Source: an uncultured Alphaproteobacteria bacterium (GTDB taxonomy: Bacteria; Pseudomonadota; Alphaproteobacteria; HIMB59; GCA-002718135). Taken from it: a stretch of 36,381 bases of DNA. Position 1 is the first letter of the stretch. Each line of letters starts with the position of its first letter. Made by a program: the position numbers and the translations under genes. Below the pieces are notes generated by a model. The model was given only the letters and a program-made list of their open reading frames with translations. It was not told the DNA's origin and did not search any database. The stretch is from positions 1-36,381 of the forward strand of contig CACFVT010000010.1 of NCBI GenBank assembly GCA_902569865.1, in the 5' to 3' direction. Positions 5,342 through 23,051 of the stretch are shown here, in pieces.

Positions 5342-6505
5342 ATGAATGCATTGATTTCAGCTTTCAAAGATAAGCAAAAAATAATGTTTGCAAATGAGGG
5401 CAGGTTATTAAAAAAATCATTCTTTGGTCTTTTGATACTTGCTTTAGCTTTTCAGACTGGAGATTTTGGAGATGTTATACGTGAATCAATGGTTAATGCA
5501 TATCTTGCTGTATCAGTTTTTGTTGGTTTTACCCTTATTGTATTCATTGGTTTGGACTCTCTTACAAACTTTGATATCGGTTCTTTTTTAGATAAAACAA
5601 AAAAATTACATGTGCCAATTGCCTCTTTTCTTGGAGCAATACCAGGATGTGGTGGTGCAATAATTGTTGTCACACAATACATACAAGGCAGAATTTCTTT
5701 TGGATCTTTAGTAGCTGTTTTAACTGCAACAATGGGAGATGCTGCCTTTCTTATTCTTGCTATGGAACCATCAACAGGGTTATTAATTTTTTTCTTAGGT
5801 ATAGTTGTTGGTACAATCTCAGGTTACTTAGTTGATCTTTTACATGGCACTAATTTTATGATGGACAGTTATAAAATTGAAATTGAATTTGAAAAATTAA
5901 AAAAAACATTTGTCTCAAAGTTCAATATTTTTTGGATGATCTTATTTATTCCAGGATTTATTGTTGGCTTGCTTTTAGCCTTTCAAATTGATGTTGATAA
6001 CCTTTTATCATTACCATCCAATATTAGTTTTGTATTAATTTTAGGATCTGCAGGGGCAATTTTATCTATATTCATGTGGTCACTAAATCCTTTGAGCGAT
6101 TTTCAATGTTCTACAGATAAAAGCAGAGGGTTTATATCAAGAGTTGTTGATACTACAAACTTTGTTACAACTTGGGTAATAAGCGGGTTTTTAGTTTTTG
6201 AGATTTTTATGTATTTTACAAGTTTAGATCTTAAAATGTTTTTTGATTTGTGGCTTCCATTTGTTCCATTAATTGCAATTTTATTTGGTTTCTTACCTGG
6301 TTGCGGTCCACAAATTGTTGTAGCAACATTTTATTTAAATGGATATATTCCTTTGTCCGCTGAACTAGGTAATGCAATTTCTAATGATGGAGATGCATTG
6401 TTTCCAGCTATTGCACTTGCACCTAAAGCGGCAATCATGGCAACTATTTATAGTGCTTTTCCAGCGCTGATTGTTGCTTATAGCTACATGATTTTCTTTG
6501 AATAA
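5342..6505 (+). CDS. Putative manganese/heavy-metal exporter (10TM, ArsP_2-like)
   Basis: Polytopic membrane protein with two repeated motifs, IPGCGGAIIVVTQY and LPGCGPQIVVATFY, typical of putative 10TM heavy-metal exporters; beside mntR. Confidence 0.75.
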   Translation: MNALISAFKDKQKIMFANEGRLLKKSFFGLLILALAFQTGDFGDVIRESMVNAYLAVSVFVGFTLIVFIGLDSLTNFDIGSFLDKTKKLHVPIASFLGAIPGCGGAIIVVTQYIQGRISFGSLVAVLTATMGDAAFLILAMEPSTGLLIFFLGIVVGTISGYLVDLLHGTNFMMDSYKIEIEFEKLKKTFVSKFNIFWMILFIPGFIVGLLLAFQIDVDNLLSLPSNISFVLILGSAGAILSIFMWSLNPLSDFQCSTDKSRGFISRVVDTTNFVTTWVISGFLVFEIFMYFTSLDLKMFFDLWLPFVPLIAILFGFLPGCGPQIVVATFYLNGYIPLSAELGNAISNDGDALFPAIALAPKAAIMATIYSAFPALIVAYSYMIFFE

Positions 6506-19870: not shown

Positions 19871-21304
19871 TTAGACATCATAATAAAGATTAAACTCATG
19901 TGGATGAGGTCTTAAATCCATTGGGCTAACCTCATTTTCCCTTTTGTAAGTAATATAAGTTTCAATGTTATCTTTAGTAAATACATCACCCTTAAGCAAA
20001 TATTTATGATCTTTTTCTAAAGCATCAAGAGACTCAGCAAGAGAACCAGGTGTTGAAGGAATTTTTGCTAAGACACTAGCTGGAGCTTCATAAATATTTA
20101 TGTCCGTAGGTTTACCTGGATTAATCTTATTTTTAACACCATCTAAACCTGCCATTAATATAGCTGAAAATGCTAGATAAGGATTTGAAGAAGGGTCTGG
20201 ACATCTAAACTCAATTCTTTTTGCTTTAGGGCTAGCTGTATAGTTATTAGGTATTCTAACTGATGCAGTTCTATTAGCAGCAGAATAAGCAATATTTACA
20301 GGTGCTTCAAATCCTGGCACTAATCGTTTATAAGAATTTGTTGTAGGTGCACAAAAAGCTAATAATGATGGAGCATGTTTTAATATTCCACCTATGTAAT
20401 AAAGTGCAAATTCACTTAAATCTGCATAATTCCCTTTTTTATACATCAGTGTTTTATTTTTTTTCCAGATACTAGAATGAACATGCATGCCTGATCCATT
20501 ATCTTCAAAAAGTGGTTTTGGCATAAATGTTGCAGTGAGACCATGAAGTTTAGCAACATTTTTAACAACATATTTATATTTCAATAAATCATCAGCCATT
20601 GATAATAGTGGTGAGAATTCTAAATCAATCTCACACTGTCCCCCAGTTGCAACTTCATGGTGCGAAGCTTCAACATTAATTCCGATATCCTCCATTGTTA
20701 AAACCATTTCAGTTCTAACATCTTGCAAACTATCAGATGGAGGTAATGGGAAATACCCCCCTTTATGTCTTGGCTTATGACCTAAATTTGGATTTTCATC
20801 TTTTCCTGTGTTCCAAGCTCCTTCAGTAGAGTCTACTTCATGAAAAGCAAAGTTAGAACCTGAGTCATACTTAACATCATTAAATACAAAAAACTCAGCT
20901 TCAGGGCCAAAATATGCTTTATCACCCATACCAGAAGATTTAAGATATTTTTCTGCCTTTTTTGCAATATATCTAGGATCTCTAGTATAACTTTCGTAAG
21001 TAATTGGATCAACAACATCGCAAGTAAATGCAATTGTTTTTTCAGAGTAAAAAGGATCAATGTATCCAGTAGTTACATCAGGTACCATAGCCATATCACT
21101 ATTTTCAATGGATTGAAATCCTCTAACAGATGAGCCATCAAAACCAACACCATCTTTAAACAAATCTTCAGTTAAATATTTAACTGGGATTGATATATGA
21201 TGTGTTGATCCAGGCATGTCTGTGAAACGAAGATCAACCATTTTTATTTCTTCATTTTTAATTTTTTTTAATAATTCTTTAGCAGTCTTGCATTTATATT
21301 TCAT
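19871..21304 (-). CDS. glnA: Glutamine synthetase type I
   Basis: VGFDGSSVRGFQSIENSDM, GPEAEFFVF, SHHEVATGGQCEIDLEF, NGSGMHVHSSIWK, SYKRLVPGFEAPVNIAYSAANRTASVRIP. Start placed at ATG 21304 behind GAGG; the ORF track extends to 21325. Confidence 0.96.
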   Translation of the reverse strand: MKYKCKTAKELLKKIKNEEIKMVDLRFTDMPGSTHHISIPVKYLTEDLFKDGVGFDGSSVRGFQSIENSDMAMVPDVTTGYIDPFYSEKTIAFTCDVVDPITYESYTRDPRYIAKKAEKYLKSSGMGDKAYFGPEAEFFVFNDVKYDSGSNFAFHEVDSTEGAWNTGKDENPNLGHKPRHKGGYFPLPPSDSLQDVRTEMVLTMEDIGINVEASHHEVATGGQCEIDLEFSPLLSMADDLLKYKYVVKNVAKLHGLTATFMPKPLFEDNGSGMHVHSSIWKKNKTLMYKKGNYADLSEFALYYIGGILKHAPSLLAFCAPTTNSYKRLVPGFEAPVNIAYSAANRTASVRIPNNYTASPKAKRIEFRCPDPSSNPYLAFSAILMAGLDGVKNKINPGKPTDINIYEAPASVLAKIPSTPGSLAESLDALEKDHKYLLKGDVFTKDNIETYITYKRENEVSPMDLRPHPHEFNLYYDV

Positions 21305-21327
21305 ATACACCTCATGTTCTAACATTG

Positions 21328-21352
21328 ACTAATTTCACCAATTGAAATTAGT
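21328..21352 (-). promoter_or_regulatory. 9-bp hairpin in the glnA leader (candidate riboswitch expression-platform element)
   Basis: ACTAATTTC-AATTGGT-GAAATTAGT on the minus strand, between the second glnA RNA copy and the SD. An ATGTT-AG-AACAT hairpin (21314-21325) directly precedes GAGG. Confidence 0.5.
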
Positions 21353-21396
21353 TTATTAATTACTTCATGCTCTAGTTATGAAATCTGCTTTTAATG

Positions 21397-21441
21397 CGTT
21401 CCTTCAGCTTAAGCTTACTTCCGACCCAAAAGGGTTGAACG
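21397..21441 (-). ncRNA. glnA RNA motif (glutamine riboswitch), copy 2, proximal to glnA
   Basis: Minus strand: CGTTC A ACCC-TTTT-GGGT CGGAAGTA AGCTTAAGCT GAAG GAACG; P1 CGTTC/GAACG, P2 ACCC/GGGT, third short hairpin AGC/GCT, conserved CGGAAGTA and GAAGGAACG cores. Confidence 0.87.
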
Positions 21442-21459
21442 ATTTATAACTTTTGCATG

Positions 21460-21512
21460 CGTTCCTTCGGTCAAAGACCTACTTCCGATTTAAGAAAATC
21501 TTAAATTGAACG
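21460..21512 (-). ncRNA. glnA RNA motif (glutamine riboswitch), copy 1, distal
   Basis: Minus strand: CGTTC A ATTTAAG-ATTTT-CTTAAAT CGGAAGTA GGTC-TTT-GACC GAAG GAACG; same cores as copy 2, different but compensatory stems. Confidence 0.87.

Positions 21513-21555: not shown

Positions 21556-23051
<1,496 letters not shown>

Follow-up and report, generated by a model that had tools for sequence, protein, structure and literature searches.

Glutamine riboswitch doublets with a predicted shared switch helix before glnA in an alphaproteobacterial genus without GlnD

In the window, i.e., the whole stretch of 36,381 nucleotides analysed here, which comes from a marine alphaproteobacterium with a small genome, two glutamine aptamers stand in series upstream of glnA, the gene of type I glutamine synthetase (GS). 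This arrangement raises the question of whether the two copies act as separate riboswitches or operate one shared switch, and in which direction glutamine would then turn the gene. A sequence-only reading had placed two minus-strand copies about 18 nt apart between glnB and glnA, both facing glnA, in an apparent alphaproteobacterium, and had identified them as glutamine riboswitches with nearly identical cores and covarying stems. All of these points were borne out. The doublet forms the leader of glnA on the minus strand, with aptamer 1 at 21512-21460, an 18-nt linker at 21459-21442 and aptamer 2 at 21441-21397, and the minus-strand gene order is aminotransferase, glnB, riboswitch doublet, glnA, a gyrB/parE-like gene and glycerol kinase. 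The features of the locus are as follows.

21556..21897, minus strand: glnB (P-II), PF00543
21460..21512, minus strand: glutamine aptamer 1 (RF01739), from Rfam cmscan (59.9 bits) and sequence; stems, from sequence, P1 CGTTC/GAACG, P2 ATTTAAG/CTTAAAT and P3 GGTC/GACC
21397..21441, minus strand: glutamine aptamer 2 (RF01739), from Rfam cmscan (68.3 bits); P2 ACCC/GGGT and P3 AGC/GCT
21328..21352, minus strand: gene-specific hairpin P5, between the 3' element described below and the ribosome-binding site, from RNAalifold and partition functions
21310..21313, minus strand: glnA ribosome-binding site GAGG, from sequence
19871..21304, minus strand: glnA, type I glutamine synthetase, TIGR00653 at 652 bits

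Judged from the GAGG site and the conserved N-terminus, the ATG at 21304 is more likely to be the glnA start than the longest-ORF start at 21325. Elsewhere in the window, an ORF on the plus strand (5342-6505) scores well over the cut-off of the NCBIfam family of arsenic efflux proteins.

Both cmscan matches to RF01739 cover the full model length (21514-21456, E 5.8e-11, for aptamer 1; 21443-21393, E 2.8e-13, for aptamer 2) and exceed the gathering cut-off of 35 bits. They lie far beyond chance, because comparable scores in the window come from tRNAs only. The core segments CGGAAGTA and GAAGGAACG are the same in the two aptamers, and P2 and P3, though of different sequence, still pair; over 34 doublets these stems carry many two-sided compensatory changes, with at least one such change in 15 of the 30 predicted pairs. 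The solved structure of the glutamine-I aptamer shows hydrogen bonds from the ligand to G59:C1, the terminal pair of P1, and to G22 and C58 in the triple above, with P1 capped by a long-range base pair (PMC6698751). The ligand-contact nucleotides C1-G59, G2-C58, G22, G23 and C60 (CG..CGG..CG-C; contact positions from PMC6698751, construct numbering from PMC5393176) are present in both copies, so both would be expected to bind glutamine, and the suggestion of a "two-input" response finds no support, the contacts being the same in the two. Other features considered for the leader were rejected: further RNA families gave chance-level matches only, with Glutamine-II at 16.8 bits reflecting cross-similarity; as a linker promoter, TATAAAT would put the transcription start within P1 of aptamer 2, and a promoter scan found none there; and the lone viral-contig pattern match, which might have indicated phage carriage, is a chance match inside coding sequence.

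The comparison of copy number among relatives that had been proposed gave a clear outcome. Of the 37 genus genomes, 36 contain RF01739, and the copies are almost always paired into doublets whose linker is 16-18 nt long; nearly all of the 88 loci collected are doublets with a P1-stem spacing of 16 to 18 nt. The doublets precede three kinds of operon, namely glnA (29 of the fetched loci), amtB paralogues and an operon with a circularly permuted ATP-grasp gene (PF14403/PF04174). The doublet stands in sense orientation 5' of a nitrogen-metabolism gene in the window, and the window's own genome (1.03 Mb, 59% complete) holds a second doublet, 5' of an ammonium transporter gene; a 96% complete member of the genus has eight aptamers in four doublets. 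One Pelagibacteraceae bacterium MAG, SI047_bin126, also belongs to the genus (60-mers identical in 28/28), and the other close loci come from Alphaproteobacteria single-cell genomes. The sole member without an RF01739 match (G015, 82% complete) also lacks GlnD; its riboswitches may have been lost, have diverged or lie within an assembly gap. Four single aptamers, in L156, L181, L233 and L238, stand 5' of a divergent paralogue of amtB, whose product shares about 30% identity with the main AmtB, and the linker and its helix are absent from them.

Outside the genus, RF01739 was not found in 24 sampled genomes of the sister family of the same order, and among 385 genomes sampled across the class it occurs in two families only. 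The one locus examined in the second positive family (L243) has a single aptamer, again 5' of the ATP-grasp gene. The permuted ATP-grasp gene (PF14403) thus follows glutamine riboswitches, doublet or single, in two families of Alphaproteobacteria (L161, L170 and 18 similar loci; L243), which suggests a place in glutamine/nitrogen metabolism for its operon, so far poorly understood. In L161 and L170, a short ORF of about 17-20 codons, preceded by AAAGG in a hairpin loop, lies between the doublet and the ATP-grasp gene and ends at or beside the ATP-grasp start codon; translational coupling of the two is possible. When the amtB and ATP-grasp operons are compared, aptamer 1 resembles aptamer 1 (similarity 0.72) and aptamer 2 resembles aptamer 2 (0.76), with 0.61-0.71 between the two aptamers of one locus. 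Exchange between aptamer positions was therefore rejected, and the amtB/ATP-grasp doublet appears to have been copied as a unit; in glnA only aptamer 2 shows this same-position likeness.

What the doublets share beyond the aptamers is a pair of conserved segments, which form the two strands of a predicted helix that we call P0.

21442..21459, minus strand: conserved linker CATGCAAAAGTTATAAAT, 5' strand of P0, kept in about 80 doublets of the genus and complementary to 21384-21366
21365..21384, minus strand: conserved 3' element ATTTCATAACTAGAGCATGA, 3' strand of P0, from conservation, folding and complementarity

In the window, P0 consists of GCATG (21370-21366) with CATGC (21459-21455), ATAACT (21379-21374) with AGTTAT (21451-21446) and ATTT (21384-21381) with AAAT (21445-21442); it encloses aptamer 2 and sits directly beneath P1 of aptamer 1. 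The linker consensus is CATGCAAA(A)GTTAT(T/A)AAAT and that of the segment after aptamer 2 is ATTTC(C)ATA(A/G)CTA(G)AGCATGA. Both segments are kept over three unrelated operons in 36 genomes, whereas the leader 5' of aptamer 1 and the hairpin 3' of the element vary. Across the classes, CATGC pairs with GCATG, and AGTTAT pairs with ATAACT in glnA and with ATAGCT in the amtB and ATP-grasp leaders; the helix includes a small internal loop of A-rich mismatches, and AAAT/ATTT is present in most loci. P0 was predicted, with no helix specified beforehand, by a separate RNAalifold run in each class (32 glnA, 31 amtB and 18 ATP-grasp leaders). The classes were folded separately since the pooled MAFFT alignment, in which linker registers differ, misses all P0 pairs beyond CATGC/GCATG; this part is paired in 34 of 34 pooled sequences, two of them by G-U.

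A blind energy test, in which the linker was paired against the 45 nt 3' of aptamer 2 with shuffled targets as the control, gave a mean of -11.1 kcal/mol for P0 doublets vs. -5.2 kcal/mol for shuffled targets, with p<=0.01 in 53 of 57 distinct cases. Doublets without P0 gave -3.7 vs. -3.2 kcal/mol, and none of 7 reached p<=0.01. P0 was not present in the SAR86-type doublets or in the single aptamers. It recurs with altered sequence at the distant locus AG-899-J15 (GGTTA/TAACT) and, with a longer linker, in a TMED109 locus, where CATGC/GCATG is retained and pairs are added. This TMED109 doublet (Alphaproteobacteria, L104 7100-7330) has a 63-nt linker with a hairpin of its own, CATGC at the linker start, GCATGA downstream and an extra TACTATT/AATAGTA pairing. 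Covariation within P0 is thin: most pairs are invariant, and the changes are one-sided (A-U to G-U, U-A to U-G) or come from two outlying loci. Taken as a prediction from sequence conservation and complementarity, the existence of P0 is well supported.

The position of P0 bears on whether the two aptamers work separately. Tandem glnA RNAs, and glnA RNAs before glutamine synthetase, were noted in a 2010 survey (PMC2864571), and a 2022 survey counts 157 glutamine doublets and 4 triplets, classed as multi-platform and pseudo-cooperative (PMC9481103). The tandem arrangement, including that before glutamine synthetase, is thus already published, and two independent single-aptamer riboswitches in series, with incidental conservation of the linker, would agree with this classification as well as with the SAR86-type doublets, whose linkers are 6-9 nt long without P0. 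However, no terminator, hairpin or ribosome-binding site was seen between the aptamers in the 18-nt linker, and a single gene follows; because all three are absent there, only one expression platform exists, and the glnA doublet does not have the separate platform per aptamer that defines a pseudo-cooperative tandem. The co-conservation of the linker with the downstream element also speaks against independence, which we regard as quite improbable. P0 instead looks like one shared switch helix, and the doublet as modelled combines two aptamers, a structured linker (P0) and a single expression platform, in the manner of glycine tandems. P0 may accordingly offer a structural basis for a steeper or cooperative response.

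How a shared helix could reach glnA is suggested by a second pairing partner of the 3' element.

21298..21305, minus strand: TATGAAAT, around the glnA start codon; its complement ATTTCATA lies in the 3' element (21384-21377), and the two would form a proposed masking helix that cannot coexist with P0

We consider it moderately probable that the glnA leader is a doublet of class-I glutamine aptamers sharing one expression platform, in which P0 opens and closes as a glutamine-OFF switch that took the place of a protein cascade. At low glutamine, P0 would be formed, the glnA start codon accessible and GS made. When glutamine occupies aptamer 1, the first linker nucleotide, C60, which we take to be the capping partner of aptamer 1 in the pair G23-C60, would enter the long-range pair that caps P1; P0 would be deprived of its end and melt, and the freed 3' element could then pair with the AUG region (ATTTCATA/TATGAAAT), halting glnA translation. 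Aptamer 2, enclosed by P0, would have its part in the same switch. In the 2015 structure of Ren et al., a linchpin G-C pair reportedly arises on ligand binding while a short helix beneath P1 melts.

Partition functions, whose values are energy-model output computed without ligand, show the two pairings to be mutually exclusive. When both aptamers are kept folded, the glnA leaders divide between P0 and the pairing of element and start codon; the AUG is 79% unpaired with P0 forced and 3% unpaired with the linker barred. Withholding C60 alone lowers P0 in glnA from 0.47 to 0.02 and AUG opening from 0.40 to 0.04, and withholding the first linker nucleotide lowers P0 in the ATP-grasp leaders from 0.76 to 0.14; in the amtB leaders, the AUG changes little (0.71 to 0.68). 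The glutamine-OFF direction is favoured because of these results and the reported helix melting, and it fits GS/AmtB physiology too.

The opposite direction, in which ligand-bound aptamers stabilise P0, free the start codon and raise GS and AmtB with glutamine, has some evidence of its own: when the aptamers are constrained to their fold, P0 in glnA rises from 0.10 to 0.46, a folded aptamer 2 brings the P0 strands together, and the naive reading of this is an ON switch, as proven for cyanobacterial gifB. Both cyanobacterial glutamine riboswitches tested are ON switches according to a 2018 review, but these known cases govern a GS inhibitor and related small proteins, and such a response would be contrary to nitrogen-assimilation logic for glnA and amtB. 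P0 moreover adjoins P1 of aptamer 1, the site of the ligand and the capping pair. A glutamine-ON switch is thus unlikely in our estimation.

The gene-specific side of the leader invites another alternative, in which P0, like the leader-linker helix of glycine riboswitches, is a scaffold for contacts between the aptamers only and control acts at some other step, e.g., the P5 hairpin, Rho or an RNase. P0 occurs in all three operons, whereas a start-site complement is clear for glnA alone, and P5 keeps its structure with a sequence that differs from operon to operon. The energy of the element:start pairing is -9.0 for the cognate glnA vs. -6.1 and -4.8 for gene-swapped partners; the amtB and ATP-grasp cognates pair no better than swapped or shuffled ones, and start-site pairing was rejected as a general rule. 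However, in glnA this pairing is strong and excludes P0, and we rate the scaffold as rather unlikely. No terminator was found for P5 or the leader, and no T-run follows P5 within the window. A C/CC difference in the element, once read as covariation with the glnA/amtB start sites, was dropped because the CC of the amtB/ATP-grasp leaders pairs with GG in a small spacer hairpin (GGA..TCC).

The glutamine-OFF reading gains a wider setting from the proteins that usually sense glutamine. GlnD is present in none of 37 genus genomes vs. 24 of 24 in the sister family, and it is also absent from the 96% complete member. The genus genomes are 55-89% complete, and a sampling gap is very unlikely given 37 consistent absences and that in the 96% complete member. 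GlnE was found in 0 of 10 genus members tested vs. 5 of 6 in the sister family. Two protein loops are remodelled, in keeping with the absence of both enzymes. The window's glnB product has an altered T-loop, TGGID..YDDEF, replacing TELYRGAEYVVDF, and TGGIDxxxxYDDEF or a close variant occurs in 27/27 genus members read, with TELYRGAEYVVDF in the sister family. The adenylylation loop of the window's GS is degenerate (INxYxA.. replacing KNLYDLPPEE), and in 28/28 genus members KNLYDLPPEE has become INLYAASDEV, INIYEAPASV or a close variant. In the sister family, which has no glutamine riboswitches, GlnD, GlnE (in 5/6), the T-loop of P-II and the adenylylation loop of GS are all retained; the glnB-glnA gap there is some tens of bases with no riboswitch, and the GS start, ATGGA(C/T)AAA, lacks the complement to the element. 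RNA thus appears to have taken over glutamine sensing from the lost GlnD/P-II/GlnE cascade in this lineage. GlnD had no match in 111 of 385 genomes of the class; its absence is not rare, and therefore cascade loss does not require a riboswitch. The full proposal, i.e., a cooperative single-platform switch whose inter-aptamer helix is opened by glutamine, in a regulon of 3-4 operons that replaces GlnD-PII-GlnE sensing throughout the genus, is advanced tentatively, at slightly less than even confidence.

The sequence-only reading was right that glnA RNAs had been described mainly from cyanobacteria and marine metagenomes; the 2018 review gives the associations with GS, PII and ammonium transporters as known from environmental sequences only. 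The glnA- and amtB-linked riboswitches, known in 2018 only from uncultured environmental sequences, are now placed in a defined genus, and P0 is a concrete switch helix that can be mutated and whose direction of action is predicted. Set against the sister family, the genus combines RNA glutamine sensing with the disappearance of GlnD and GlnE, of the T-loop in P-II and of the adenylylation loop in GS. Two things can thereby be put to the test, namely genuine cooperativity in glutamine doublets and the capacity of riboswitches to take over from the classic nitrogen cascade. The available parts of the 2010 and 2022 surveys (PMC2864571, PMC9481103) mention no conserved linker, closing helix or host lineage of glnA-linked doublets. 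In the open full-text literature, no description was found of the linker-element helix, the host genus or a link to GlnD/GlnE loss, and no experiments were found on glnA- or amtB-linked glutamine riboswitches.

Among known systems, the closest is the glutamine-I (glnA) riboswitch RF01739 itself, with the same sequence, structure, ligand-contact nucleotides and association with nitrogen-metabolism genes. Its tested example is the ON switch of gifB in a cyanobacterium, whereas the doublets described here have P0 and belong to an alphaproteobacterial genus, where they stand 5' of glnA, amtB and an ATP-grasp operon. The tandems of the 2010 and 2022 surveys (PMC2864571, PMC9481103) are likewise doublets 5' of nitrogen genes. 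SAR86-type doublets (L053, L099, L108 and L115, the last including a triplet) have the same aptamer class in series, but their linkers are 6-9 nt long, apart from the 24 nt that precede the third copy of the triplet, and P0 is absent. The triplet, in Pseudomonadota AH-736-J14 (about 5675-5800, minus strand), has three glutamine aptamers with gaps of 7 nt and then 24 nt. The tandem glycine riboswitch likewise has two like aptamers, one platform and a structured linker; in glycine doublets, the linker interacts with the leader, whereas here it pairs with the segment 3' of aptamer 2.
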